From assembly GCF_011250635.1 (NCBI RefSeq), contig NZ_JAANNP010000007.1, positions 44,964-108,963 of the forward strand: a stretch of 64,000 bases of DNA, in the 5' to 3' direction. The notes under the pieces were generated by a model. The model was not told the DNA's origin and did not search any database. It saw only the letters and a program-made list of their open reading frames with translations. Position 1 is the stretch's first letter, and every line of letters starts with the position of its first letter. Source of the stretch: Motilibacter deserti. GTDB taxonomy: Bacteria; Actinomycetota; Actinomycetes; Motilibacterales; Motilibacteraceae. Below are positions 6,192 to 60,991 of the stretch, one piece after another. Made by a program: the position numbers and the translations under genes.

Positions 6192-6199
6192 GCCTGAGG

Positions 6200-6273
6200 C
6201 GACCCCGACGGGACTCGAACCCGCGGCCTCCGCCGTGACAGGGCGGCGCGCTAACCAACTGCGCTACGGGGCC
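6200..6273 (-). tRNA. tRNA-Asp (anticodon GTC)
   Basis: On the minus strand the sequence opens GGCCCCGTAGCGCAGTTGG, shows a D-loop, an anticodon stem with loop CTGTCAC (GTC), and a T-arm GGGTTCGAGTCCC. The acceptor stem GGCCCCG pairs with CGGGGTC, including one G-U pair, and G follows as discriminator. No encoded CCA is seen. Confidence 0.96.
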
Positions 6274-6328
6274 TTGCTCGGCCTTGCGGCCGTCGTGCAG
6301 GAGAAGTATTCCATACGGATACCGCTCG

Positions 6329-6401
6329 TGCCCCCAACGGGATTCGAACCCGTGCTGCCGCCTTGAAAGGGCGGTGTCCTGGGCCTCTAGACGATGAGGG
6401 C
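6329..6401 (-). tRNA. tRNA-Glu (anticodon TTC)
   Basis: On the minus strand the sequence opens GCCCTCATCGTCTAGAGG, has the anticodon loop CTTTCAA (TTC) and T-arm GGGTTCGAATCCC, and closes with an acceptor stem TGGGGGC followed by discriminator A. It lies 55 bases upstream of tRNA-Asp and is probably co-transcribed with it. Confidence 0.96.
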
Positions 6402-45532: not shown

Positions 45533-45879
45533 GCCGTCTCCAGGTGCTCGGAACTGTTCGGTGCGGGTGCCGCTGACACACGCACAACGGCACCCTCCGG
45601 CGCGGCATTCCGGCGCGTGTCCCGGGGGCCGGCCAGCAGCCGACGGACGAGCAGCAGCTCGGCCACGGACCAGGCCTGGGCCGGGCAGCCCGTTGCGGCG
45701 TGCGGCGCGGTGCCCTCGGCCGTCTCGGACACCGACCCGACGCCCCACTCGGACAGGGTGCGCAGCCCGGCGACGGTGCCGATGGCGTACCCGCCGAGGC
45801 CGTCGGTGACGAGCCACTCGCGCGCGCCGGACTCGGACAGGGTGCCGCAGGCCTGCGGCCCGAGGCGGGTCACGGTCAC
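45529..45879 (-). pseudogene. Internally deleted glycogen-debranching-enzyme remnant
   Basis: An open frame of 116 codons whose N-terminal part, GAREWLVTDGLGGYAIGTVAGLRT, matches the start of amylo-alpha-1,6-glucosidase (GDE) proteins, and whose later part, GVGSVSETAEGTAPHAATGCPAQAWSVAELL, matches the extreme C-terminus of the same family. The several hundred residues between, including the catalytic part, are missing. The frame is nevertheless intact and overlaps both neighbours by four bases (GTGA with GH63 upstream, ATGA with thioredoxin downstream). It may be a dead remnant kept for translational coupling or a small new protein. Confidence 0.75.
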
Positions 45880-48527
45880 CAGGACTCGCCCTCCCCGCCC
45901 AGCCTCCGCCCGGTGATCAGGTCGGCCACGAGGCCGGTCCAGCCCGTCTGGTGCGAGGCGCCCAGGCCGGCGCCGTCGTCTCCGTGGAAGTACTCGAAGA
46001 AGAGCGTCTGCCCGTGCCATCGCGGGTCCTGCTGGAAGCGCTCGACCCCGCCGTACGTCGGCCGCCGCCCGTCGGGACCGGGCAGGAACAGCGACACCAG
46101 CCGGCGGCGCAGCTCTGCGGCCACGTCGTCGAGGCGGAGCAGGCTCCCCGAGCCCGTGGGGCACTCGACGGTGAGCCGGTCGCCGAAGTACGACCCGAGC
46201 CGCGCGAGCGCCTCGACGACGAGGTAGTTCACCGGCATCCACACCGGCCCGCGCCAGTTGGAGTTGCCGCCGAACATCCCGCTGCGCGACTCGGCGGGCT
46301 CGTAGCCGACCCTCGCGGAGATGCCGTCGACGTCGATGCGGAACGGGGCGTCGAGGTGTCGTCGCGAGAGCGAGCGGATGCCGTGGGGCGACAGGAAGGA
46401 CTCCTCGTCCAGCAGCTCGGCGAGGAAGCGGCGCAGCACGTCGGGCGACACGAGCGAGAGCAGCACACGCTCCTCGCCGTCCCCGGGGACGACCGCCCCG
46501 AGATGGCGCGCGTCGGCCTCCTCGGCGCGGGCGAGCAGGCCGGGCAGTCGTCGGGCGAACCCGTTGCGCTCGACCCGGTCGCGATCGACCACGGTCGCGG
46601 CCAGCAGGGGCAGCACGCCGACCATCGAGCGCACCTTCAACGGCACGCGCCGCCCGGTCGGGGTGATCAGGACGTCGTAGAAGAAGGCGTCGTCGGGGTC
46701 CCAGAGCCCCTGCTCCTCGAGTGCCTCGGAGATCGAGGCGAAGTGCTCGAGGAACGTCGTGGTGAGGTCTTCGTACGCCGGGTCCTGCTCGGCGAGCTCG
46801 AGGGCTATGTGCAGCATCGACAGGCAGTAGAACGCCATCCACGCGGTGCCGTCCGCCTGCTCGAGGGAGACGTCCTTCGGCAGGTGCGAGCGGTCGAGCG
46901 GGCCCACGTTGTCCAGCCCGAGGAAGCCACCGTGGAAAGCGCTGTTGCCGTCGGGGTCCTGCCGGTTGACCCACCAGGCGAAGTCCAGCAGCAGCTTGTG
47001 GAACACCCGCTGCAGGAATCCCCGATCTCTGCTTCCGTCCAGGCGGTAGACCTTCATCACCGCCCACGCGTGCACCGGCGGGTTGACGTCGTCGAACGCC
47101 CATTCGTAGGCGGGCAGCGCGCCGTTGGGGTGCTGCAGCCATTCGCGGGTCATCAGCTCGAGCTGGTACTTCGCGAACGCGGGGTCGAGGTGGGCCAGCA
47201 CGACGGTGTGGAAGGCGAGGTCCCACGCCGCGAACCAGGGGTACTCCCACGGGTCGGGCATGGACAGGATGTCGTTCGACCGCAGGTGCCGCCACTTCGC
47301 GTTGCGCCCGCCGCGCCGCGGCGCCGGGGGAGGCGGCTGGCCGGGGTCGCCGTCCAGCCAGCGCGCCACGTCGTACGGGTAGAACTGCTTGCCCCAGAGC
47401 ATCCCGGTGAAGGCCTGCCGCATGACGCGGGCCTCCTCGGCTCCCGCGTCCGGCGGCGTGAGGCCGGCGTAGAACTCGTCGGCCTCGCCCTTGCGCTCGG
47501 CCATCGTCGTGTCGAACACGGCGCCCGCCCAGCCGGTCTCGGCCGCTCCGGCGTGCAGCCGGAGGCGCAGCTCGACCGTCTCCCCGGCGGCCACGGGCAC
47601 CCGGTAGTGCAGCGCGGCCTTGGTCCCCGAGCGGTCCGGGTTGACCGTGGGCGCGCCGTGGACGAGGTGGTCGCCGATCCCGTCCTTGGGATGGGCGGGG
47701 CCGGGTGTCCCGAAGAGCCGTTCGGTGTTCGTCTCGTTGTCGCAGAAGAGCGGGGTCGGTGCGCCCTCCGGCCCCGACGCGGCGTCGAGCCGGTACGTCC
47801 CGAGGGTGGGGTGGCTCGCCACGAGGCCGTCGCCGTCCGCCCGGGCCCGCGGCTGCGGCGAGCCGGGCTCCCACGCCCAGGTGTTGCGGAACCACAGGGT
47901 CGGCAGCACGTGCAGGACGTCAGCATCGGGGCCGGCGTTCGTGACGCGTACGCGCATGAGCACGTCGTCGACGTCCGCCTTGGCGTAGTCGACGTCGACG
48001 ACCCAGTAGCGGTCCCCGTCGAAGACCCCGGTGTCGAGCAGCTCGAACTCGGCCGCCCCTCCGTCACCACGACGGCGTGCCGCCTCCTCGACGAGACGCC
48101 CGTAGGGGAACTCGCGCTGGGGGTAGTGGTAGCGCCAGGACAGCCACGCCGAGCTGGGGACCGCGTCGACGTACCACCAGTACTCCTTCGCGTCCTCGCC
48201 GTGGTTGCCCTCCGGCCCGGTCAGCCCGAAGATGCGCTCCTTGAGGATCGGGTCGCGCCCGTTCCACAGCGCCAGCGCCAGGCAGAGCCGCTGCTCGGCG
48301 TCGCAGATCCCGGCCAGGCCGTCCTCGTTCCAGCGGTACGCGCGTGAGCGGGCGTGGTCGTGCGGGAGGTAGCCCCACGCCTCGCCGCCCGCGCTGTAGT
48401 CCTCGCGAACCGTCCCCCACGCGCGCTCGGAGAGGTAGGGCCCCCAGAGGTACCAGGGGCTGGCCTGAGCCACGCCCTCGTCCGGCCGTCCGATGCCCGC
48501 GACCCGCTCCCGCTCGGCTCCCGTCAT
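45876..48527 (-). CDS. GH63-type glucosidase
   Basis: Cytosolic (alpha/alpha)6-barrel glycoside hydrolase of 883 aa. No signal peptide. The order is an N-terminal beta-sandwich (about 1-390, LSERAWGTVREDYS) and a C-terminal catalytic barrel with FPYDVARWLDGDP, DPWEYPWFAAWDLAFHTVVLA, GNSAFHGGFLGLDNVGP and SGMFGGNSNWRGPVWMPVNYL. This is the pattern of GH63/MGH-like proteins that hydrolyse alpha-glucosides such as glucosylglycerate or oligoglucosides; the substrate is not proven. The gene is the first of an overlapping operon followed by the GDE remnant and thioredoxin. Confidence 0.9.
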   Translation of the reverse strand: MTGAERERVAGIGRPDEGVAQASPWYLWGPYLSERAWGTVREDYSAGGEAWGYLPHDHARSRAYRWNEDGLAGICDAEQRLCLALALWNGRDPILKERIFGLTGPEGNHGEDAKEYWWYVDAVPSSAWLSWRYHYPQREFPYGRLVEEAARRRGDGGAAEFELLDTGVFDGDRYWVVDVDYAKADVDDVLMRVRVTNAGPDADVLHVLPTLWFRNTWAWEPGSPQPRARADGDGLVASHPTLGTYRLDAASGPEGAPTPLFCDNETNTERLFGTPGPAHPKDGIGDHLVHGAPTVNPDRSGTKAALHYRVPVAAGETVELRLRLHAGAAETGWAGAVFDTTMAERKGEADEFYAGLTPPDAGAEEARVMRQAFTGMLWGKQFYPYDVARWLDGDPGQPPPPAPRRGGRNAKWRHLRSNDILSMPDPWEYPWFAAWDLAFHTVVLAHLDPAFAKYQLELMTREWLQHPNGALPAYEWAFDDVNPPVHAWAVMKVYRLDGSRDRGFLQRVFHKLLLDFAWWVNRQDPDGNSAFHGGFLGLDNVGPLDRSHLPKDVSLEQADGTAWMAFYCLSMLHIALELAEQDPAYEDLTTTFLEHFASISEALEEQGLWDPDDAFFYDVLITPTGRRVPLKVRSMVGVLPLLAATVVDRDRVERNGFARRLPGLLARAEEADARHLGAVVPGDGEERVLLSLVSPDVLRRFLAELLDEESFLSPHGIRSLSRRHLDAPFRIDVDGISARVGYEPAESRSGMFGGNSNWRGPVWMPVNYLVVEALARLGSYFGDRLTVECPTGSGSLLRLDDVAAELRRRLVSLFLPGPDGRRPTYGGVERFQQDPRWHGQTLFFEYFHGDDGAGLGASHQTGWTGLVADLITGRRLGGEGESW

Positions 48528-49260: not shown

Positions 49261-50545
49261 CCGGCACGCCGTCGGCGTCCGCGTCGACCTCCTCCGCGGC
49301 GCAGATCGAGCGGTGGGCCCGGCTGCGCAGGCCGAGCAAGACGGCCGCGATCGCCGCCGCGAGCAACGAGCCGGTGAGGACCGCGACCTTGACGTGGTCG
49401 TCACGCTCGCTGCCGAGCCCGAACGCGAGTTCGCCGATCAGCAGCGACACGGTGAAGCCGATCCCGCCGAGGATCGCGAGGCCCAGCACGTCCAGCCAGT
49501 TGAGGTCGGAGTCGAGGTCGGCGCGGGTGAAGCGGGCGACCAACCAGGTCGCGAGCGTGATGCCGACCGTCTTGCCCACGACCAGGGCGGCCACGATGCC
49601 CAGTGCCACCCGGTCGGAGAGCGAGTCGCCGAGCCCGGACAGGCCGCCGACCGAGACCCCGGCCGCGAAGAACGCGAACACCGGGACGGCCACGCCTGCG
49701 GACAGCGGGCGGAACCGGTGCTCGAAGTGCTCGGCCAGCCCCGGCCCTGCGTCGGGCCCACCCGCACGGTCGCTGCGGATGACGGGAACCGCGAAGCCGA
49801 GCAGCACCCCGGCCACGGTCGCGTGCACGCCGGACTCGTGGACGAGCGCCCACGTCACGACCGCCAGCGGCAGCAGCAGCCACCAGGAGCGCACCCGGCA
49901 CTGCACGAGCACGGTGAACGCGCCGAGCGGGACGAGGGCCAGCAGCAGCGGGCCGATCTCGAGGTCGGAGGTGTAGAAGAGCGCGATGATGGTGATCGCG
50001 AGCAGGTCGTCGACGACGGCGAGCGTGAGCAGGAACGTACGCAGTGCCGACGGCAGGTGCCGGCCGATGACTGCGAGCACGGCGAGCGCGAACGCGATGT
50101 CGGTGGCCGTGGGGATGGCCCACCCCTTGGCCGCACCGTCGCCGGCCCCGGCCGCGATCGCCGTGTAGACCAGGGCCGGGACGAGGACGCCGCCGCACGC
50201 CGCCGCGACCGGCACCGCCGCCCGGCGCGGGTCGCGCAGGTCGCCCGCGACGAACTCGCGCTTGAGCTCGAGCCCGGCGACGAAGAAGAAGACCGCGAGC
50301 AGCCCGTCGGCCGCCCACGTCGCGAGCGTCAGGTCCAGGTGCAGCGCGCCCGGCCCGACCTTCGTGTCACGCAAGTCCTCGTAGGCGCCCGACCAGGGCG
50401 AGTTGGCCCACGCCATGGCGAGCACGGCGCCGGCGAGGAGCAGGGCGCCGCCGATGGTCTCCTTGCGCAGGATCTCGGCGATGCGCGACGCCTCGGGCCA
50501 GGAGCCGCGGCCGAGCAGACGGCGGGGCGAGGTCGGCTGGGCCAC
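49235..50545 (-). CDS. nhaA: Na+/H+ antiporter NhaA
   Basis: Secondary sodium/proton antiporter, 436 aa, with about 11-12 transmembrane helices. The family signatures [51 protein letters not shown] and [18 protein letters not shown] (with the Asp pair VVDD) are all present. The C-terminal tail ends [16 protein letters not shown], and its last 21 bases are repeated further downstream. GAGGAG stands before the GTG start. Function: pH and salt homeostasis. Confidence 0.95.
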
Positions 50546-50640
50546 GGGGGCTCCTCAGGTGTGCGGGGACGACGAAGACGTCGCCGACCAGACTTCCCGG
50601 CACACCGTGGTCCAGCTTAGTCGGCGCTCGCGGGCCACCT

Positions 50641-50686
50641 CGTGTGCGTGGGGGCACGTCAGGACGTGCTGGGGGGCACACAACGT
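50641..50686. repeat. Inverted repeat, left copy, flanking the DUF559 gene
   Basis: When reversed, this 46-bp segment matches 51684-51729 at about 35 positions without gaps. Shared blocks in order are ACGTTGTGTGC, AGCACG, TGACGTG, CC and GCACAC. It lies upstream of the gene; the mirror copy overlaps the gene's 3' end. Confidence 0.75.
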
Positions 50687-50775
50687 GCGAGCAGCGGTTG
50701 TCCACAGGGGCCGGACCGTCCACAGATGCCGGCTCGGACGCCCTGCCCGGTCGGTGCGGCCCGCAGGCTCGGCAG

Positions 50776-51711
50776 ATGCCCGACCTCGACGAGACCGCAC
50801 TGCTGCAGGGACGCGTGGTGCATCGCGACCAGGCCCTCGCCGAGCTGACCCGTTCGGCGCTGGCGTGGCGTGTCCGGTCCCGGCGCTGGCGAGCTGTGCA
50901 CCGAGACGTCTTCTGCATCGACCAAGGGCCGTTGGGCCCGGAGGGCACGGCTTGGGCTGCGCTCCTCGCAGCGGGGCGGGGCGCGGCTCTCAGCCACGGC
51001 ACCGCCGGCTGGCTGTGGGGCTTGCTCGACGCACCCCCAGCGCTCGTGCACCTGACGGTCCCGGCGGGGCGCAGAGCGGTGCGGCTCGAGGGAGTACGCG
51101 TCCACCGCTCCCGCCTGCTCGACCTCGCGGCGCACCCTGCTGCCGCCCCGCGGCGGACCAGGCTCGAGCACACCGTCATCGACCTCGTCGCGGCCGCGCC
51201 GGACCTCGACTCCGCGCTGGCTCTCGTCGCGGCCGCCGTCCAACGTCGGCTCACGACGCCCGCACGGCTTCGGACGGCCGTCGAGGCGCGGAAGGCCTTC
51301 CGGTGGCGGCGCGACCTCGTCGCGGTCCTGGTGGACGTCGCCCGCGGCGCCCAGTCGCTCCTCGAGCTGCGCTACGTGCGGGACGTCGAGCGCGCGCACG
51401 GGCTGCCTCGTGGCCGGCTGCAGTCGGTGGAGCGCGTCGCGGGCCAGCGGGTCTACCGGGACGTGGAGTACGAGGACTACGGCGTGTGCGTGGAGCTCGA
51501 CGGCAGGCTAGGACACGACGCGCCACGCGACCGGTGGCGGGACAAGGCACGCGACAACCTGGTCGCGGTGTCCGGCCGGCTCAGCCTGCGCTACGGCTAC
51601 GCGGACGTGACCGTACGACTGTGCGCGTCTGCGGTCCAGCTCGCCGCGGTGCTGACCGCTCGAGGGTGGGCCGGCAAGCTCCGACGTTGTGTGCGCTGCA
51701 GCACGCCATGA
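50776..51711 (+). CDS. AbiEi/DUF559-type protein
   Basis: Protein of 311 aa. The N-terminal part (LLQGRVVHRDQALAELTRSALAWRVRSRRWRAVHRDVF) resembles the winged-helix of AbiEi-type antitoxins, and the C-terminal domain (ECGVCVELDGRLGH-like: YGVCVELDGRLGHDAPRDRWRDK) resembles DUF559, a Vsr/PD-(D/E)XK-like endonuclease fold. ATG at 50776. No cognate AbiEii nucleotidyltransferase toxin is adjacent, so the protein is probably a solitary family member common in actinobacteria. It is flanked by imperfect inverted repeats that start 90 bases upstream and overlap the last codons. Confidence 0.8.
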   Translation: MPDLDETALLQGRVVHRDQALAELTRSALAWRVRSRRWRAVHRDVFCIDQGPLGPEGTAWAALLAAGRGAALSHGTAGWLWGLLDAPPALVHLTVPAGRRAVRLEGVRVHRSRLLDLAAHPAAAPRRTRLEHTVIDLVAAAPDLDSALALVAAAVQRRLTTPARLRTAVEARKAFRWRRDLVAVLVDVARGAQSLLELRYVRDVERAHGLPRGRLQSVERVAGQRVYRDVEYEDYGVCVELDGRLGHDAPRDRWRDKARDNLVAVSGRLSLRYGYADVTVRLCASAVQLAAVLTARGWAGKLRRCVRCSTP

Positions 51712-51729
51712 CGTGTCCTGCTGCACACA
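51684..51729. repeat. Inverted repeat, right copy, flanking the DUF559 gene
   Basis: Mirror of 50641-50686. This copy is itself partly dyad-symmetric (TTGTGTGC...GCACACAA with inner CACG...CGTG), so it could fold into a hairpin terminator while also being an end repeat. Confidence 0.75.
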
Positions 51730-51900
51730 AGGTCATCGACCCCCGCCGAAATCGTCGCGACCGACGAAGCTTTCGCTGCAACCTGACACGGATGTCACGG
51801 CTTGGCATCGGGCTGACCGTGGGCAGCGGTTCGGCCTTGTCCGAAGGCGCTCCGACGCGCACCATGCCGGAGCCCATCCCTCCGTCTCCCAAGGGCCGAG

Positions 51901-54900
51901 ATGACCAAGAAGCATCCTTCGCGGGCGCCGATCGCAGCCGTGGCCACCGCCGGGCTGGTCGCGTCCTCCGCGCTGCTCGCCGCGTACGCCGCCCCGGCGT
52001 CGGCGGCGACCGGGACCGCCCCCGGGGCACCGGGCGCGGACGCCACGTGGACGACGGGCGCCAAGACCGGCGTCGGCACGTCCACCACCCTGCAGTCCAA
52101 GGTCTGGTACACGCTGTCCGACGGCGTCCTGTCCGAGGTCTACTACCCGCGGGTCGACGTCGCGGACTCCCGCGCGCTCGAGCTGATCGTGTCGGACGGA
52201 AGGACCTTCGCCGAGAGCGAGGTCGACGCGACCGACCACACGACCGAGCTCGCCGACGACCGCGGGCTGGTCTACCGGCAGGTCAACACCGACAAGGACG
52301 GCCGCTACTCGATCACGAAGACCTACGTGACCGACCCGGCCCGCTCGACGGTGATGGTCAACGTCGAGTTCCGGTCCCTCGACGGCGGCAGCTACCAGGT
52401 CTACGCCCGCTTCGACCCGGCGCTCGCGAACTCCGGCCGCCATGACCGGGCCTGGACGGCGAGCGGCGCGCTCCTGGCCGAGGACACCAGCGGTGCGGAC
52501 AAGATCGCCAGCGCGCTGGTCGCGGACAAGCCGTTCCTCGCCACGTCCAACGGCTACGTCGGCACGGCCAGCGACGGCTGGAACGACCTGCGTGCCGACT
52601 TCGACCTCGACGACTCCTACACCGACGCCCCGGACGGCAACGTCGTGCAGGTCGCCCGCCTGCAGCTGGGCGGCACGGCGCGTACCTCGTCCGCGGCTCT
52701 GGCGCTCGGGTTCGGCGCCACCTCGGCCGAGGCGGTCGCCACCGCCCGGGCCAGCCAGGCGACGGGCTTCTGGGACATCCGCCGGGCGTACTCCGACGGC
52801 TGGCACGACTACCTCGACTCGCTGGCGAAGGCGCCGAAGAGCGTGCGCAGGGACTACGAGCTCTACACGCAGTACCGCGTGGCGGCCATGCAGCTCAAGG
52901 CGCACGAGGACAAGACCTACCGCGGCGCCAACATCGCGTCGCTGACCGTGCCGTGGGGCGAGGCGCAGAACGCCAACGAGGCCGGGGTCGGCGGCTACCA
53001 CCTCGTCTGGGCCCGCGACCTCTACCAAGTGGCCACGGCACAGCTCGCCGCCGGCGACGTCGCCGCCGCCAACCGTTCGCTGGACTACCTGTTCGACGTG
53101 CAGCAGAAGCCGGACGGCTCGTTCCCGCAGAACACCCTGCTCGACGGCACGCCCTACTGGGGGAGCCTGCAGCTCGACGAGGTCGCCTTCCCGATCGTGC
53201 TGGCCTGGCAGCTCGGCCGCACCGACGCCGACTCGTGGGGACACGTGAAGCGCGCTGCGGACTTCCTCGTCGGCCGCGGGCCGTCCACCCCGCAGGAGCG
53301 GTGGGAGGAGGAGGGCGGCTACTCCCCGAGCACCATCGCGGCCGAGATCGCGGGACTCGTCGCCGCCGCCGACATCGCGCGCACGAACGGCGACACCACC
53401 TCGGCCGTGCTCTACACCGCGGTCGCGGACGAGTGGCAGCGCAAGGTCGAGTCGTGGACCTACACGACGACCGGCCCGCTGGGTGACGGCAGGTACTACG
53501 AGCGCATCGACGACAACGGCAACCCGAACGACGGGGCGCAGCTGTCGATCAACAACGGCGGCGGGACGTGGGACGAGCGCGAGATCGTGGACGCCGGCTT
53601 CCTGGACCTCGTCCGGCTCGGCGTGAAGCCGTGGAACGACCCCTACGTCACGTCCTCGCTGCCCGAGGTCGACTCCACGATCCGCGTCAGCACGCCGCAC
53701 GGGCCGATGTGGTACCGCTACAACCACGACGGCTACGGCGAGGAGGTGGACGGCTCGCCCTACACCGGTGAGGGCGTCGGCCGGCTGTGGCCGCTGCTGT
53801 CCGGCGAGCGTGGCGAGTACGAGCTGGCCGCCGGCCGCTCCGCGGACTCCTACCTGCGCACGATGGCGGCCGCCGGCAACGAGGGCTACCTGATCCCGGA
53901 GCAGGTCTGGGACCGCCCCGAGGCGACGTCGTACGGCTTCGAGTTCGGCGAGGGCACCGGCTCGGCCACGCCGCTCGCCTGGTCGATGGCGCAGTACATC
54001 CGGCTCGCGCTGTCCATCGACGCCGGCCGCCCGGTCGAGACGCCGTCGGTGGTCGCGAACCGCTACGCCCGCGGGTCGCTGCCCGCCGGCCCGGCACTCG
54101 CGCTCACGTCGCCGACGGAGAGCGCGGTCACGGACCAGGCGACGGTCACCGTCACGGGCACGACCACCGGCAGCGCGGTCTACGTCAACGTCGGCACGAC
54201 CACCACGGCCGTGCCGGTCGTCAACGGCTCGTTCTCGTACGCCGTCCCGATCGTGCGCGGCGCCAACGCCATCACGGTCGTCGCCGTCTCCGGCGACGGC
54301 GGCACCTCGATCGTGACGCGCAACGTCACGTCGAACAACTTTGGCACCCGCATCGGCACGGTCGACGACCCGAGCGGCGACGACAACGGGCCGGGGACGT
54401 ACGTCTATCCGGCCGACGGCGCCTACAACCCGGGGGCGTTCGACATCACGCGGTTCGGCGTCTACGACGACGGCACGAACTACAACTTCGTCACCACGAT
54501 CCGCGGGGACGTCCGCAACCCGTGGGGCGGCAACTCGATCTCGGTCCAGCGGATGAACTTCTACGTCCGCACCGGGTCGGGCACCGGGGCCGTCCCGGCT
54601 CTGGTCGGCACGAACGCCCAGCTGAGCGCGCCGTACGACTTCGTCGTGACAGGGGAGGGGTTCCAGACCCCGACCGTGCAGAACGCCGCGGGCAACGTCC
54701 TCGCGACCGGCTCGCTGCAGGCGCTGCCCGTCACGCGGCAGATCGCGGTGTCCATCCCGAAGTCGGCGTTCGGTTCGATGGACCTCGCTTCGGCCTCGTA
54801 CGCCGTCGACATGATGAGCCGGGCGGACGCCGGGGAGGGGGCGGGCAACATCCGGCCCGTCTACTCGCTGGCCTACTGGCAGGCCACGGCAGGGACGGGC

Positions 54901-55092
54901 ATGTCGTGGATCCACGACCACCGCTTCGGCGGAGGTGCGGGCGAGTGGACCGACTCCAACGCGGCGAAGGACACGGACACGCGTGACCCCAACGTGCTGG
55001 ACATCCTCACTCCTGCGGGGGTGAGCCAGGCGGCCGCGCTGGCGTGGTCCGCGGGGACGCCGGCGACGCTCCCCTACGTTCCCCTCGGCTGA
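51901..55092 (+). CDS. Secreted GH15 glucodextranase/glucoamylase
   Basis: Exported inverting alpha-glucosidase of 1,063 aa. Signal peptide to about residue 36. A GH15 super-beta-sandwich (about 40-300) precedes the (alpha/alpha)6 catalytic barrel (about 300-720), with GGYHLVWARDLYQVA, SFPQNTLLDGTPYWGSLQLDEVAFPI, RWEEEGGYSPSTIAAEIAGL (acid Glu about 470) and YLIPEQVWD (base Glu 667). An Ig-like domain (about 730-820) and a glucodextranase-type C-terminal domain (about 820-1063, ITRFGVYDDGTNYNF) follow. It attacks non-reducing ends of alpha-glucans or dextran. Hairpin after the stop. Confidence 0.93.
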   Translation: MTKKHPSRAPIAAVATAGLVASSALLAAYAAPASAATGTAPGAPGADATWTTGAKTGVGTSTTLQSKVWYTLSDGVLSEVYYPRVDVADSRALELIVSDGRTFAESEVDATDHTTELADDRGLVYRQVNTDKDGRYSITKTYVTDPARSTVMVNVEFRSLDGGSYQVYARFDPALANSGRHDRAWTASGALLAEDTSGADKIASALVADKPFLATSNGYVGTASDGWNDLRADFDLDDSYTDAPDGNVVQVARLQLGGTARTSSAALALGFGATSAEAVATARASQATGFWDIRRAYSDGWHDYLDSLAKAPKSVRRDYELYTQYRVAAMQLKAHEDKTYRGANIASLTVPWGEAQNANEAGVGGYHLVWARDLYQVATAQLAAGDVAAANRSLDYLFDVQQKPDGSFPQNTLLDGTPYWGSLQLDEVAFPIVLAWQLGRTDADSWGHVKRAADFLVGRGPSTPQERWEEEGGYSPSTIAAEIAGLVAAADIARTNGDTTSAVLYTAVADEWQRKVESWTYTTTGPLGDGRYYERIDDNGNPNDGAQLSINNGGGTWDEREIVDAGFLDLVRLGVKPWNDPYVTSSLPEVDSTIRVSTPHGPMWYRYNHDGYGEEVDGSPYTGEGVGRLWPLLSGERGEYELAAGRSADSYLRTMAAAGNEGYLIPEQVWDRPEATSYGFEFGEGTGSATPLAWSMAQYIRLALSIDAGRPVETPSVVANRYARGSLPAGPALALTSPTESAVTDQATVTVTGTTTGSAVYVNVGTTTTAVPVVNGSFSYAVPIVRGANAITVVAVSGDGGTSIVTRNVTSNNFGTRIGTVDDPSGDDNGPGTYVYPADGAYNPGAFDITRFGVYDDGTNYNFVTTIRGDVRNPWGGNSISVQRMNFYVRTGSGTGAVPALVGTNAQLSAPYDFVVTGEGFQTPTVQNAAGNVLATGSLQALPVTRQIAVSIPKSAFGSMDLASASYAVDMMSRADAGEGAGNIRPVYSLAYWQATAGTGMSWIHDHRFGGGAGEWTDSNAAKDTDTRDPNVLDILTPAGVSQAAALAWSAGTPATLPYVPLG

Positions 55093-55100
55093 CCGGACAC

Positions 55101-55132
55101 GGAAGGCGCGGCCCGCTCGGGCCGCGCCTTCC
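55101..55132 (+). terminator. Terminator of the GH15 gene
   Basis: GGAAGGCGCGGCCCG pairs with its complement over 15 bases around a CT loop (which opens to a small tetraloop), nine bases after the stop. Confidence 0.8.
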
Positions 55133-55243
55133 GCGTGTTCGGCTCGGGCCGCGCGCCCTTGGTGCGTCCTGCTCGGCCGGCTCGCGGCCGAAAAGGCGGG
55201 CTGTGGCAGGCGCGTCGGAGAGGACGAGCCGTGGAAAAGCAGA

Positions 55244-55281
55244 GAAAGGCCCGGCTTCCGCCGCGTGACGGAAACCGGGCC
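55244..55281 (-). terminator. Terminator of the lasso-precursor transcript
   Basis: AAGGCCCGG-C-TTCCG pairs with CGGAA-A-CCGGGCCTT around an eight-base loop, 70 bases downstream of the lasso-precursor stop on the minus strand. Confidence 0.65.
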
Positions 55282-55350
55282 TTGCCCTGTTGCATCCCGG
55301 AACGGGATGTCGGTTGGCGCTGTCTTCCGGCCGAGCCGGACTTGCTGTTG

Positions 55351-55515
55351 CTAGGAGAAGATCGAGAACGGCGGAACCGGCGTGTTGAGCGGAACGTCCG
55401 TCCGCGCGCCGGCGTTCGAGGCCGCCGTGAGCTTCTCCAGTGTGCCCACCATCGCGAGCTCCGGTGCGACGTACGGGCGTCGGCCGGACTGTGTCCCGGC
55501 GACATCGTTGACCAT
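55351..55515 (-). CDS. Orphan lasso-peptide precursor
   Basis: A 54-aa peptide. Leader: RRPYVAPELAMVGTLEKLT matches the lasso recognition pattern YxxPxLxxxGxxxxLT. Taking that Thr as position -2 gives a 23-residue core beginning ASNAGARTD, so Ala1 and Asp9 could form the nine-member macrolactam ring, with a VPLNTPVPPFSIFS tail to thread. GGAGGGGG stands just ahead of the ATG at 55515, better than the longer start at 55581. Terminator downstream. No cyclase (asparagine synthetase-like), leader peptidase or recognition protein lies in the window, so processing enzymes must be elsewhere or absent. Neighbours are glucanases, an unusual setting. Confidence 0.75.
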   Translation of the reverse strand: MVNDVAGTQSGRRPYVAPELAMVGTLEKLTAASNAGARTDVPLNTPVPPFSIFS

Positions 55516-55621
55516 GTGCTTCCCCCTCCGTCGGCGATACTTGGCCCTACTGAAAATCGACGTAGCGGGCACTCCTGTCAAGACCTTCTCGCGACATTCC
55601 GCATCTCGTGGGCGCTCGCCG

Positions 55622-56869
55622 TCAAGATCCCGGTCGGGTGTAGACCGCCACGTAGTCGACGATCATGGGAATGCCGGAGGCGGTCGCCGCGGTGGGCAGC
55701 CCCGGCCATCCTCCGCCGATAGCCACGTTCAGGATGAGGAAGTAGCCGTGGCTGAACGCGTTCTGCCACGTCTGCGCCGGAAGCTGGTCCTGACGGATGC
55801 TGAAGTACTGGATGCCGTCGACGTACCACCGCAGCTCCTCCAGGGCCGAGCTGCGGTCCCACTCGAGCGCGTAGGTGTGGAAGGCGGACTGCAGGCTCGG
55901 CTGGCCCATGGGCCGGGTCCCGCTCAGGCCGTTGAACTCGTTGCACGGGCCACCCGGTGCCGTCCCGCAGTGCAGCGTGCCCCAGACCTGGTTGGCACCG
56001 TTCACGTTCTCGAGGATGTCGATCTCCCCGACGCGCGGCCAGTCCAGCGTCCCGCGGAAGGGCGCGCCGAGCGACCAGAAAGCCGGCCAGATGCCCTGCG
56101 CGGCCGGCCCGGTGACGTCGGGCAGCCGGATCCTGCCCTCGAAGCGCAGGACCCCTCCGGCCGGCGGCTCGAAGTCGCTGCGCCGGGTCTCGATGCGCGC
56201 CGACGTCCACTGGCCGCCCGCACCCCGGATCGGCGTGATGCGCAGGTTGCCCTGGCCGTCGGTGCTGACGTTCGCCGGGTCGTCGGTCATGGTCTCGATC
56301 TCGCCCGTGCCCCATTGCGGCGGGCCACCGGGGTATTGCGTGCCGATGTCGAAGATCCAGTTCTCGGCAGACGGCAGCTGGCCGGCGGGGCCGTTGAAGT
56401 CGTCGGCCCAGACCGTGGTGAACGCGGGGCCGCTCGCCGCGCGGACGGTGACCGCTGTGGTCGTCACCGCGGAGCTGCCGTCCGGCCCCGACAGCCGCAC
56501 GGTCGCGCGGAAGACCCCGCTCGTGGCGTAGGAATGGGTGCCGAAGATCCCCCAGGCCTCGCGCGGGCCGGCGAGGAACCCGGGGGAGGTCGTGCCGTCG
56601 CCCCAGTCGATGACGGCCGACAGGTCCGCGCGCTGCGTCCCCGGCGCGTACGCCGTGGCGAGCGCCGCCGACATGGACCGGTTCTGCGTGAGGGTGACGG
56701 TGGTGGGGCTCAGGCTGACCGGCCCGGCAGCCGTGGCGGGTGGGCCGACGACGGTGGCGGCGGCGAGCGCGGTGCCGGCCAGCAGGGCGAGGCCGGCGGA
56801 CCGCAGGCGCCTCCGGCTTCCGGGGCGCGACAGGGGCAGGGGCAGAGACAGGTGCAGGGACAGGGGCAT
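55622..56869 (-). CDS. Secreted GH16 beta-glucanase-like hydrolase
   Basis: Exported jelly-roll glycosidase of 415 aa. Signal peptide to about residue 48 (PPATAAG), a PKD-like domain (about 55-150, VIDWGDGTTSPGF and SYATSGVFRATVRLSG), then the GH16 domain (about 155-415) with QWGTGEIETMTDD, WSARIETR-like segment, WPAFWSLG and the catalytic GEIDILENVNG (nucleophile Glu, Asp, acid Glu). Probably a laminarinase-type endo-beta-1,3-glucanase. The ATG at 56869, after GGGAGG, is chosen because the signal peptide starts there. Convergent or separate from the GH15 gene, with the lasso gene between. Confidence 0.92.
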   Translation of the reverse strand: MPLSLHLSLPLPLSRPGSRRRLRSAGLALLAGTALAAATVVGPPATAAGPVSLSPTTVTLTQNRSMSAALATAYAPGTQRADLSAVIDWGDGTTSPGFLAGPREAWGIFGTHSYATSGVFRATVRLSGPDGSSAVTTTAVTVRAASGPAFTTVWADDFNGPAGQLPSAENWIFDIGTQYPGGPPQWGTGEIETMTDDPANVSTDGQGNLRITPIRGAGGQWTSARIETRRSDFEPPAGGVLRFEGRIRLPDVTGPAAQGIWPAFWSLGAPFRGTLDWPRVGEIDILENVNGANQVWGTLHCGTAPGGPCNEFNGLSGTRPMGQPSLQSAFHTYALEWDRSSALEELRWYVDGIQYFSIRQDQLPAQTWQNAFSHGYFLILNVAIGGGWPGLPTAATASGIPMIVDYVAVYTRPGS

Positions 56870-57010
56870 GGGGCCTCCCGACGACGTTGGCGGTCGATCG
56901 GGAGCCGTTGATCCGAATTCGTCCCCCGACAGGCAGCAGCCTCCGCCTCCGGCGAGCCAGCCGTCAAACCTCCGCCCCTGGCAGCGGGGCATCGGTCTCG
57001 GGGCCCGCGA

Positions 57011-57487
57011 TCACGGCCCCGGGCGGAAGCTGATCCGCATCAAGCGGCTGTGGGCCCAGTCCTCGAGCCGGGTCGGTCGGATGGTGCCGGGGTCGTGGGG
57101 CTGGTTGAGATCCGCCACGATCTCCGCCAGCACGGCCTGCCGTTCGGCGGGGTCGGTGACCGGCGTGGCCCGTGCCGGCAGATCCGCACGGACCCCGTTC
57201 TTGAGGTGGAAAGTGAACGTGGGATCGGCGAGAAGGTTCGCGTGCCAGTCGGTAGCACCCCCGCCGGCGCCGCTGCACAGGTAGGTGCTGCCCGCCGCTC
57301 GGTAGAAGAAGATCTCGATGCGGCGTGCCCGGCCGGTGCGGCGCCCCCGTGTCGTGATGTCGATGATCCGTTCCCGCGTGCCCGCCGCGGGGGTGATCTG
57401 GATGGCTCGCCGAATGTGATCGGGCAGGTGCGACAAGGACCCGTCCCCTACGGAGTCGTCCCGCCCGGTCGTTCCAGGACTGCTCAT
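57011..57487 (-). CDS. Nitroreductase/F420-dependent (DDN-like) protein
   Basis: Deazaflavin-dependent nitroreductase (DDN) family protein of 158 aa, split beta-barrel. Core: IIDITTRGRRTGRARRIEIFFYRAAGSTYLCSG and DWHANLLADPTFTFHLKNGV. DDN members use F420H2 to reduce quinones or nitro-compounds. The ATG overlaps the stop of the SDR gene (ATGA), so the two are a coupled operon; both are likely repressed by the divergent TetR. Physiological substrate unknown. Confidence 0.9.
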   Translation of the reverse strand: MSSPGTTGRDDSVGDGSLSHLPDHIRRAIQITPAAGTRERIIDITTRGRRTGRARRIEIFFYRAAGSTYLCSGAGGGATDWHANLLADPTFTFHLKNGVRADLPARATPVTDPAERQAVLAEIVADLNQPHDPGTIRPTRLEDWAHSRLMRISFRPGP

Positions 57488-58263
57488 GCGGCCTCGGTCC
57501 GAAGGGCCGGCCCGAGGAGGAGCCCGCCGTCGATGACGTACTCCGACCCGGTGATGAACGACGCCTCTGACGAGGTGAGGAACAGGAGTAGCCCGGTGAC
57601 GTCGGCCGGCACTCCGAGCCGGGGGATGGCGAACGGCTCGGGGGAGAAGAAGTCGGCGATCGCCGCGGTGGCGCCGGCTGCTGGCTCGTGGATGAAGGGG
57701 GTCGCGATCACACCGGGGTGGATGGTGTTCACCCGGATGCGGTCCCGGCCGAGCTCGAGCGCTGCCGTCCGCGTCAGGCCTCGCACGGCCCACTTGCTGG
57801 CGACGTACGGCGCGTAGTGCGCCGTGCCGCCCAGGCTCATGGTCGAGGCGATGTTGACGATGGCCCCGCCTGTCGCCCTGCGCAGGGCGGGGACCGCGGC
57901 CTTGATGCCGAGGAAGGTCCCGGTGAGGTTGATGTCGAGGATGCGCGACCACGTGGCCCGGTCCGTCTGCTCGATCGGCGCCGGCGGGTTCTGGACGCCC
58001 GCGTTGTTGACGAGCACGTTCAGCGCGCCGAAGGCGCGCTCGGCGGCCAGCACGGCGGCGGACCACGAGCTCTCGTCGGTGACGTCGAGGTGGGTGAAGC
58101 GGGCGCGGCCCCCGAGCTCGTCGGCGAGCTCGACACCGCGCTCGGCGTCGATGTCGGCGATCAGCACGTTCGCTCCCTCCGCGTGGAAGGCGCGTACGTG
58201 GCTCGATCCCTGGCCACCGGTCCCGCCGGTCACGAGCACGGTCTGGTCGTCGAAGCGGCCCAT
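57484..58263 (-). CDS. Short-chain dehydrogenase/reductase
   Basis: NAD(P)-dependent SDR of 259 aa with TGGTGGQGSSH (cofactor loop), NNAG, catalytic Ser in VNIASTMS and YAPYVASK (Tyr/Lys). Length is normal. ATG at 58263 follows GAAGGA; an alternative ATG 39 bases earlier exists. Together with the DDN-like gene it forms an operon of two reductases, perhaps for xenobiotic or quinone detoxification. Divergent from the TetR gene, with two palindromes between. Confidence 0.92.
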   Translation of the reverse strand: MGRFDDQTVLVTGGTGGQGSSHVRAFHAEGANVLIADIDAERGVELADELGGRARFTHLDVTDESSWSAAVLAAERAFGALNVLVNNAGVQNPPAPIEQTDRATWSRILDINLTGTFLGIKAAVPALRRATGGAIVNIASTMSLGGTAHYAPYVASKWAVRGLTRTAALELGRDRIRVNTIHPGVIATPFIHEPAAGATAAIADFFSPEPFAIPRLGVPADVTGLLLFLTSSEASFITGSEYVIDGGLLLGPALRTEAA

Positions 58264-58323
58264 CAGAGATTCCTTCGGTGCGACAAGGACTGGCCGGGTC
58301 ATCGGTGCTCGGCGACGGCCAGT

Positions 58324-58343
58324 AGTGAGCCGAACGACTCACC
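58324..58343. promoter_or_regulatory. TetR-type operator, copy 1
   Basis: AGTGAG...CTCAC(C) arms (GTGAGCCGAACGACTCAC core) lie between the divergent SDR and TetR genes, close to the SDR start. Confidence 0.65.
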
Positions 58344-58370
58344 ACTGCCTGACGCTAAGCCACCGGCGAT

Positions 58371-58390
58371 GGTGAGTCAAGCCACTCACC
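58371..58390. promoter_or_regulatory. TetR-type operator, copy 2
   Basis: GGTGAGTCAAGCCACTCACC has perfect 7-bp arms and matches copy 1 at 14 of 18 core positions, 47 bases away centre to centre. It lies just ahead of the TetR gene and probably mediates autoregulation. Confidence 0.7.
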
Positions 58391-58405
58391 TCGTAGGCTG
58401 GGCGC

Positions 58406-59050
58406 ATGAGCAGGGTCGTCCCGACGTATCACCAGCGCATCGCCCAGGAGAAGCGCGCGCTGATCCTGGCGGCTGCGACGGCACTGTTCCTCGAGTTGGG
58501 CTACGACCGGACCTCGCTGGCGCGGGTGGCAGAGCGGTCGGGCGTTTCGCGCGCGACCCTGTTCAAGCAGTTCCCGAGCAAGGCGGCCCTGTTCGACGCC
58601 ATGGTCAGCGAGTCCTGGTCGACCGCCGACGAGGAGGAGCTTCCGCCAGCAGGCGACATCGCTGCCGGTCTCGGCATCATCGGCCGCCGCTACGCCGAGC
58701 TGTTGGGCCGCGCCCAGATGACCGACCTGTTCCGGATCGTCATCGCCGAGCTGCCGCGATTCCCCGAGCTCGCCAATGCGCAGTTCTCGCACGGGAAGCT
58801 GCCCTACTTCGAGTCCGTACGCGGCTACCTGCTGGCCGAGCACGAGGCGGGGACGGTGCGGGTCGACGACGTGGACCTCGCCGCCACCCAGTTCCTGGGC
58901 ATGATCTCCAACTACGTCTTCTGGCCGACGCTCCTGGTGCCGGGCTGGGAAGTGAGCGCCGAGCGCGTCGCTCAGGTGGTCGACGAGGCCGTCCGCACCA
59001 TGGCTGCGCGATACGCCGCGGCCGGGCCGGGGCCGTCGGTCGACGACTGA
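58406..59050 (+). CDS. TetR-family repressor
   Basis: Repressor of 214 aa. The N-terminal HTH shows RALILAAATALFLELGYDRTSLARVAERSGVSRATLFKQFPSKAALFDAM, the canonical TetR pattern; the C-terminal ligand domain is of the usual helical kind with no obvious specificity. Divergent from the SDR/DDN operon; the intergenic region carries two matching palindromes, so it is very likely the regulator of that operon. Ligand unknown. Confidence 0.93.
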   Translation: MSRVVPTYHQRIAQEKRALILAAATALFLELGYDRTSLARVAERSGVSRATLFKQFPSKAALFDAMVSESWSTADEEELPPAGDIAAGLGIIGRRYAELLGRAQMTDLFRIVIAELPRFPELANAQFSHGKLPYFESVRGYLLAEHEAGTVRVDDVDLAATQFLGMISNYVFWPTLLVPGWEVSAERVAQVVDEAVRTMAARYAAAGPGPSVDD

Positions 59051-59151
59051 GTCCGAGCGCGAGCAGGCCCCACCGTCGCACGAGGGGAGGCGACGGCCCG
59101 AGAGCCCATGGATACACGGTCGTCTCGGAGGATCTGGGCCCCGCGGGAACG

Positions 59152-59187
59152 CCGACGGCCCGGCTCCCACCGGAGCCGGGCCGTCGG
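59152..59187. terminator. Bidirectional terminator between TetR and nucleotidase genes
   Basis: CCGACGGCCCGGCTCC pairs perfectly over 16 bases around a CACC loop, between convergent genes. Confidence 0.85.
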
Positions 59188-59215
59188 TTGTTCGTCAGCC
59201 GCGGGGAAGCGTTCC

Positions 59216-60991
59216 TCAGAAGACGGGCACGCCCTCGCGTACGAGCCGCCAGTTGACGTCGGAGAAGCCCGCCGGGTCGATGACGCCCTTGGAGGTCACC
59301 CAGTCGACGATCATCTGCCGGATGTCGCGCTGCTGGTCGTAGATCACCGGCGCTGTCGACACGTGCGGGAAGTTGCCGCCGCCGGAGCGCCGGTAGTTGT
59401 TGACGGCGACCGCGAACCGCTCGCTCCCGGCGACGGGCGTCCCGTCCGGGTGGCGCAGCCCGACGACCCGCGAGCCGACCGGCCTGGAGACGTCGATGTC
59501 GTAGTCGAGGCCGGAGATCATGTCGTAGAGGTAGTCCGGCGTGCCGTTCGCATTGGTCAGCTGCGACTCGACGACGGGCGCGCCGACCGGCAGAGTGCTG
59601 AAGTAGCGTGCCGAGAACTCGAGGTAGTCCTTCACCTGAGCGCCCGTCATCAGCACAGCCTGCAGGGTGTTGTCATAGACGTAGAGCCCGGCGACGTCCT
59701 TGATCCGCAGGTCACCCGCGGGGAAGAGCGCGGTCCGCGTGAACGGCGCCGCGACCGACAGCACCGGGAGGTCGGCGTACTCGGTGCCGGCGAGCGCCGT
59801 GTCGACCGCCTCCGTCTGCACCTGCTGGATCAGGTCGACGATCGGGGTGTCCTCGAACGGGCCGCGCGCGCCGGACAGCTCGACCGCGGACTTCGCGACC
59901 ACCTGGTTGACGTAGCCCACCGTCTTCGCGTGCTGCGGGGCGATGATGTCGAGGATCTTCGGGTCGGCGGGGACCGTGTTGCTGTTGAGGTTCGTGGAGC
60001 GCTTCGCCGTCACCTGCCACTCGCCGCCCACCCGCTGGACGTCGAAGTCCATGACCGTCAGCCGCTGGCCGAAGCGCGACGGCTCCGCGGTGAGGACCTG
60101 CTCCCCGGTGACGAGGTTCTTGACGAAGCGCTGCGGAACGTCGTTGTGCGCGTGCCCGAAGAGCACGGCGTCGACGTCGGGCACCTGCTGGGCCACCAGG
60201 GCGGACGCGTTCTCCACAGGCAGGTCGTCGCCGTAGGACGAGAAGCCGCTGTCGCCGGCGTGGGCCGTGACGACGACGATGTCCGCGCCCTCGGCCTTCA
60301 TCTCGGGAACGTACTTCTTCGCGGTGGCGACGAGGTCGTCGAAGTGCTGCTTGCCCTTGACGTTGTCCTTGTCCCAGATGGCGACACCGGGGTTCGTGAG
60401 CCCGAGCACGCCGATCTTCACTGGCTTCTGACCGGGGACGAGGATCTTCTTCATCACCCACGGCTCGTACGCCGGCTTGCCCGTCCGGTCGTCGATCGCG
60501 TTGGCGGCGAGCACCCGGGCCGTCAGCTGGCGCTGCCACTTGTCGAGCAGCTTGATGCCGTAGTTGTATTCGTGGTTCCCGAGGGTCACCGCGTCGTATC
60601 CGATGGCGTTCATCGCCGCGGCCATCGGGTGGATCGCACCCGTCTTCGTGATCGGCTCGACCTTGGCGTAGTAGTACGCCAGCGGCGTGCCCTGGATGGT
60701 GTCGCCCGAGTCGAACAGCAGCGTCCTGTCGCGCCCGCGGGAGGTGCGCACCTGGTTGACGAGCGAAGAGATCTTCGCGAGCCCGACGTCGTTGTGCGCC
60801 GAGTCGTCGTACTCCTTGTCGCTGAAGTAGTCCCAGTTGTAGACGTTGCCGTGCAGGTCCGACGTGCCCATGACCGTGACGGTCAGCGAGGGGGGCGCGG
60901 CGGCCGAGGCCGGCCCGGTCAGGCCGGTCGGCGCCGCGAGGGCGGCCGCGGCGGTAGCCACGACAACCGCCGGCAGAAGGCGTCGCCGCAT
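59216..60991 (-). CDS. Secreted 5'-nucleotidase / cyclic-nucleotide phosphodiesterase
   Basis: Exported two-domain nucleotidase of 591 aa. A Sec signal ends near PASAAAP. The metallophosphatase domain (about 35-350) has [31 protein letters not shown] and FGHAHND, so the dinuclear site is complete. The C-terminal nucleotide-binding domain (about 355-590) has [10 protein letters not shown] and [12 protein letters not shown]. This is the CpdB/UshA-type family, which dephosphorylates extracellular nucleotides to recover phosphate and nucleoside. ATG at 60991. Convergent with TetR. Confidence 0.93.

Follow-up and report, generated by a model that had tools for sequence, protein, structure and literature searches.

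A stand-alone lasso-peptide precursor gene in Motilibacter deserti with paralogues in a lasso enzyme cluster on another contig

Genome mining for lasso peptides commonly seeks precursors beside a cyclase gene. In a 64,000-nucleotide stretch of the Motilibacter deserti genome (here called the window; C253:44964-108963 of an assembly with 4,993,991 bases in 269 contigs, 98.68% complete), the initial annotation placed a 54-codon lasso precursor between two glucanase genes, called it an orphan and proposed that enzymes encoded elsewhere might serve it. The locus raises the question of whether this short frame is a genuine gene and, if so, which enzymes would mature its product. The frame was borne out and lies on the minus strand, which had not been given; its features and surroundings are as follows.

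55351..55515, minus strand: stand-alone lasso-peptide precursor gene, 54 codons from ATG to TAG; product MVNDVAGTQSGRRPYVAPELAMVGTLEKLTAASNAGARTDVPLNTPVPPFSIFS, 54 aa
55423..55515, minus strand: predicted leader, residues 1-31, ending ...LTA at a putative cleavage site
55456..55473, minus strand: YxxPxL motif, here YVAPEL, the predicted binding site of the B1 recognition protein
55354..55422, minus strand: predicted core ASNAGARTDVPLNTPVPPFSIFS, 23 residues, with a putative boundary
55396..55398, minus strand: Asp at core position 9, the predicted ring-closing residue
55521..55529 (written 55529-55521), minus strand: Shine-Dalgarno site, sequence GGAGGGGGA
55246..55283, minus strand: terminator-like hairpin of 17 pairs with a T-rich tail, fold z -8.5
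55622..56992, minus strand: GH16-type glucanase gene, a flank and not lasso machinery
51901..55092, plus strand: GH15 glucodextranase-type gene, the other flank
55132..55639, no strand: precursor-bearing stretch between the blocks that can be aligned to M. aurantiacus, 508 bp as against 115 bp there

The two glucanase neighbours are accordingly the GH15 and GH16 flanks, and the strong Shine-Dalgarno site and own terminator that had been described correspond to the listed site and the 17-pair hairpin. With the putative cut after LTA, the leader has Y(-17), P(-14), L(-12), G(-8) and T(-2), that is, YxxPxL at -17 to -12 and Thr at -2, positions also given for lasso precursors in the available text of PMC10368454, and the core has Asp9, within the range of core positions (7-9) at which lasso precursors carry Asp or Glu. 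The leader pattern, the Ala at the start of the core and Asp9 could be read from the translation as annotated, and the mass calculated for the lasso form (core minus water) is 2339.191 Da, with [M+2H]2+ at 1170.603; the calculated values for the other three precursors of the genome are 2314.148, 2419.163 and 2336.238. A scan for the leader motif combined with Asp at core position 9 gave a single match in the window and none in 100 first-order Markov windows of 64 kb, the pattern having been composed after the gene had been seen. The peptide is 87% and 84% identical by alignment (87% and 80% by BLASTP) to two proteins on other contigs, both of which also have the MVND extension and the ring Asp, and the gene has three strong paralogues elsewhere in the M. 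deserti genome. On these sequence comparisons the window frame is confirmed as a genuine gene, homology being stronger proof than the motif count against Markov windows. Pfam gave no match for the peptide. A consensus scan upstream of the gene found no sigma-70-type promoter, and by eye a TTGACA is present there. No tRNA lies near the precursor (both window tRNAs are at 6198-6401), and no Rfam family was found at window positions 50000-60000. About 3.4 kb from the GH15 gene there is a GH63/MGH1-type hydrolase (45876-48527, minus strand), the region being rich in glycan enzymes.

The genome-wide enzyme search proposed by the initial annotation yielded a cyclase, a B1 and the start of a B2 on contig C227. 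The asparagine-synthase search of the M. deserti genome led to an open frame of 460 residues at an end of this contig (22,363 bp), and the genes there are arranged in the order B1, DUF6065, precursor A1, precursor A2, cyclase and start of B2, with DUF6065 alone on the opposite strand. The cyclase (417 aa, SGGRDS, PF00733 54 bits) is the one cyclase of lasso type found in the genome; PF00733 otherwise gave five weak partial matches, two of them flagged over the cut-off (21.8 and 21 bits). Compared with solved structures, B1 matched the lasso B1 proteins TbiB1 (E 2e-11) and TfuB1, the cyclase gave weak matches to NAD-synthetase chains, and B2 gave no match. In M. deserti, B2 runs for its first ~76 residues to the end of C227; PF13471 had eight matches in this genome, none over the cut-off, and the catalytic half of B2 was not found there. 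M. aurantiacus has the same cluster order with a complete B2, which scores 38.5 against a lasso B2 cut-off of 33 and 35.1 against a PF13471 cut-off of 26, and the cyclases of the two species are 85% identical. Upstream of the M. aurantiacus cluster are ribose-phosphate pyrophosphokinase and GlmU-type genes, with similar frames at the matching place on C227. Judged by motifs read in the sequences, SGGRDS in the cyclase and Cys and His in B2 are the putative catalytic residues.

L015:3268-3537: B1 gene (PqqD-like) of the C227 cluster, M. deserti
L015:2290-3168 (M. deserti) and L029:13856-14827 (M. aurantiacus), plus strand: DUF6065 gene
L015:1840-1904 and L029:13500-13571, minus strand: hairpin between A1 and A2

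The clusters have further features of their own. In both Motilibacter species the DUF6065 gene (PF19541, 254 and 251 bits) separates B1 from the precursors and is encoded on the other strand; DUF6065 had no mention among the literature matches listed. Both species have a strong hairpin after A1 and ahead of A2, with fold z -6.5 and -4.6; it is perhaps an attenuator through which A1 would be favoured relative to A2 and the enzymes. The stretch past B2 in M. aurantiacus (L029:5055-10955) carries glycosyltransferase and polysaccharide-flippase-type genes, and the occurrence of glycan genes near both precursor sites of this species could be chance.

An alignment-based search of the M. deserti genome returned four strong matches (the window gene, A1, A2 and a lone gene on contig C234) and two weak ones; a weak match inside a longer frame (L021) was set aside as apparently due to chance. 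M. aurantiacus has three precursors, namely A1, A2 and a lone gene on contig C2, the C2 protein being recorded in the database as 'hypothetical' and A2 as 'lasso RiPP family leader peptide-containing protein'. The term orphan therefore describes the location of the window gene, beside which no lasso enzymes were seen, and does not hold otherwise, given that the gene is one of four paralogues in a genome where one such cyclase was found. The window leader is identical to the A1 leader at Y, P, L, G and T, and the two cores share TDVP and TPVPPFSIFS, with 9 of the 23 differing codons between the genes being synonymous; no upstream sequence common to both was seen by eye.

The lone genes on C234 and C2 are at equivalent positions, in the gap that parts the divergent glgE and glgP genes, and are co-directional with glgP (the M. 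aurantiacus copies are GlgE and glycogen-phosphorylase-type by Pfam, and the M. deserti pair was assigned by 92% identity). Between the species, the precursor forms an aligned block of 119 columns (70.6%, E 8e-10) that extends from 13 nt before the ATG to codon 35. Further aligned blocks are found at the glgE start, over 47 weakly matching columns (E 0.01) and across the glgP start (82.5%), the rest being unaligned or at E above 0.1, so that the precursor block stands apart from the conserved ends of the two genes. Immediately ahead of the called glgP start, ~126 bp (L031:7620-7745 and the matching L030 stretch) are well conserved as part of the 82.5% block, and may perhaps represent a promoter or a longer glgP. 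Comparison of the two lone genes gave 15 identical, 11 synonymous and 18 non-synonymous codons. In a drift simulation at 34% substitution (substitutions only, one ancestor, no indels), the motif, Asp at core position 8 or 9 and Pro two residues on were retained in 39 of 200,000 runs, and the open frame in 115,082 of 200,000. Among genomes of the taxonomic family, the glg-site copy is present in both with the cyclase and in none of the three without it, numbers too small for a statistic. These three other genomes have the divergent glgE-glgP pair with no precursor motif; searches found neither the cyclase nor a precursor in them, and their aligned glgE and glgP starts are 179, 260 and 417 bp apart, as against 696 and 957 bp in Motilibacter.

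At the window site the two species differ. The GH15-GH16 pair also occurs in M. aurantiacus, with a GH16 gene 82% identical, and a motif scan of the 16-kb region in this species, the only congener searched, found no precursor at the matching place; the window copy was therefore either gained in M. deserti or lost in M. aurantiacus. The core of another lone-type peptide, P0004, starts with QSTAGS and resembles A1, which suggests that the MVND-type copy arose from A1 by duplication. Concerning the distance to the enzymes, 8,485 bp separate the window gene from the end of C253, and the cluster occupies an end of C227; the minimum separation is thus about 8.5 kb, and loose physical linkage is conceivable. 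The GH pair and the lasso cluster of M. aurantiacus are on different contigs, and the listed matches between the right end of the window and this genome are incomplete, have identities of 66-87% and fall on several contigs. For the lone C234 gene, the distance to the nearer contig end is about 347 kb, and on this scale there is no linkage to the cluster. A mobile-element origin was rejected after tblastn with the window peptide found no match in 72,556 plasmid records or in 50,697 phage records.

To place these genes in a wider family, we used a profile of nine precursors, none of which contains Cys; out of 231 candidates it recovered 124 proteins with E no higher than 1; 120 of these are listed, several query genes among them. 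The leader motif is present in all 120 listed homologues, partly by construction since the leader was in the query. As the initial annotation had expected of the ring Asp, an acidic residue is conserved: 117 of the 120 have it at core position 9 and the other three at position 8. Its further demand for Ala at core position 1 was not supported, the residues there being T (51 listed homologues), A (28), G (14), Q (12), S (5), R (4), V (2), M (2), N (1) and I (1). A first core residue that varies so freely, including Thr, Gln and Arg, is unusual for lasso rings; the part of PMC12670498 available to us names Gly, Cys, Ser and Ala as the usual residues and reports Asn as new. The C-terminal part of the core is near-constant, with TDVP in 109 and a PPFSIFS end in 77 of the 120 listed homologues (P0017-P0130). 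These sequences come largely from metagenome collections, one being labelled as a Chloroflexota MAG, and four strings of the core family were found in no paper. The initial annotation had made its reading depend on lasso enzymes being encoded in the genome and on a conserved ring; because a cyclase, a B1 and the start of a B2 are encoded there and the homologues keep the ring Asp, the reading of a lasso precursor served by enzymes encoded elsewhere is supported.

Genome surveys with the core family gave matches in five of 197 relatives and in eight genomes each at class level (393 surveyed) and phylum level (396 surveyed), all weak except those in M. deserti and M. aurantiacus; none of the others was assigned with confidence, and scans of genome contigs gave no confirmed locus in the named relatives. 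Related cyclases were found in 11 of the 197 genomes, the two Motilibacter species included. The other nine genomes have ten cyclase loci, with two tandem precursors at seven (L055-L061), one precursor at two (L062 and L064) and none by the pattern used at L063, which is located at a contig start. Tandem precursor pairs are common in related clusters, and lone copies were seen in Motilibacter only, in searches that used precursors of the window gene's family as queries. By eye, the weak matches L024 (genome G075) and L034 (genome G251) are precursor-like frames beside asparagine-synthetase-like frames, and G075 was also matched by the cyclase search.

Lone and clustered precursors differ in their scores on the NCBIfam lasso-leader model NF033521, whose cut-off of 19 bits is a model threshold and not a biological requirement. 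The window peptide scored 12.4 bits and the other lone-type peptides 13.6 (P0003), 16.6 (P0004) and 15.2 (P0015), with no listed match for P0014, so that five of five are below 19, whereas all four clustered precursors are above it, at 21.8 (A1), 19.6 (A2), 20.3 and 19.4. Because all five lone leaders score under the cut-off, they may be recognised less well than the clustered ones; their motif residues are nonetheless the same.

Considering that the window gene, its paralogy to the cluster precursors, and the genes for B1, A1, A2, the cyclase and the start of B2 are directly established in one genome, we regard this gene as a paralogue that stands apart from the cluster precursors and whose product is likely to be matured in trans by the cluster enzymes. 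The PqqD-like B1 would bind YVAPEL in the leader, B2 would cut after ...LTA, and the ATP-dependent cyclase would join the amine of Ala1 to the side chain of Asp9 around the tail, giving a threaded product with a 9-residue ring and a 14-residue tail. The window gene would be expressed independently of the cluster. In the simplest account, precursor genes were duplicated out of the cluster and kept because one enzyme set recognises the common leader motif. Enzymes encoded apart from their precursors are an arrangement seen for the glg copy on C234 and, on its own contig, for the window copy; the action of the enzymes on these peptides is predicted only. As far as sequence comparison can tell, one lasso enzyme set probably serves peptide genes scattered round the chromosome. 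It is a more tentative proposal, and a doubtful one, that this is a dispersed lasso system in which the cluster matures its own two precursors together with stand-alone ones switched on separately beside glucan-metabolism genes, producing different knots per carbon condition in a combinatorial use of enzymes like that of the prochlorosins. The glucan neighbourhood of the lone copies is suggestive only.

Other explanations could account for parts of the data. The window gene may be a duplicate of A1 that is poorly expressed or unmatured and heading to loss, which is unlikely in our estimate: the copy is absent at the matching M. aurantiacus site, its leader scores under the cut-off like those of the other lone copies and the consensus scan gave no promoter, but its frame, Shine-Dalgarno site and terminator are intact, the two close homologues on other contigs keep the MVND extension and the ring Asp, and TDVP and TPVPPFSIFS are common to the A1 protein despite the synonymous codon changes. 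Little credence can be given to the idea that the stand-alone peptide acts in the service of the glucan genes next to it, both lone copies being located beside glucan enzymes for a functional reason. The GH15 and GH16 genes flank one copy and GlgE and a glycogen-phosphorylase-type gene the other, as this idea would have it; however, these are two sites only, spotted after the fact and without a background rate, and the window site is not common to the congener.

The leader alone proves neither a lasso peptide nor another RiPP, because motifs similar to YxxPxL also occur in other RiPPs according to the available text of PMC13381572, which likewise describes lasso clusters holding several precursors with common leader motifs. 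Together with the unusually variable core position 1, this would allow a precursor matured by B1 and B2 to a linear or otherwise non-lasso product. We consider such a product highly improbable, as the cluster contains a lasso-type cyclase and an acidic residue is found at core position 9 or 8 in 120 of the 120 listed homologues, as the ring needs. Maturation in trans to a lasso peptide remains the preferred explanation.

The predicted system resembles the actinobacterial split-B1/B2 lasso peptides (TbiB1 and TfuB1 type) in the YxxPxL leader, Thr(-2), the ring Asp, a PqqD-like B1, B2 and an asparagine-synthetase-like cyclase, and is unlike them in having the window precursor outside the cluster and a DUF6065 gene between B1 and A. 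By analogy, the nearest layout to the lone Motilibacter precursors may be that of the prochlorosin precursors, described in the accessible portion of PMC10783134 as likewise single genes away from the enzyme cluster and scattered across the genome. These differ in their lanthipeptide chemistry, LanM-type enzyme and Cys-containing cores, Cys being absent from the Motilibacter precursors, and in number, with 79 and 83 precursors in Synechococcus strains (same portion of PMC10783134) as against four in M. deserti. The lasso pathway of the citrulassins is also split across the genome, but there the unclustered part is a tailoring enzyme, a deiminase, as far as the available text of PMC12971885 goes, whereas in Motilibacter it is the precursors. 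No case of an unclustered lasso precursor was found in the literature searched, and subscription papers may hold one; none is reported in the available portions of PMC10368454, PMC12670498, PMC9576775, PMC10783134, PMC8498205, PMC12971885, PMC7280977, PMC4289311, PMC13381572 and PMC13352647.

If the lone precursors are matured in trans, surveys restricted to the neighbourhood of cyclases would overlook some peptides, including those of genomes whose cluster is already known, and the lasso enzymes would be suited by nature to a wide range of substrates. Motilibacter, having four natural substrates for a single enzyme set, makes this directly testable, and the case points to a large precursor family of at least 120 proteins listed out of 124 found, the sources shown being largely metagenomic.
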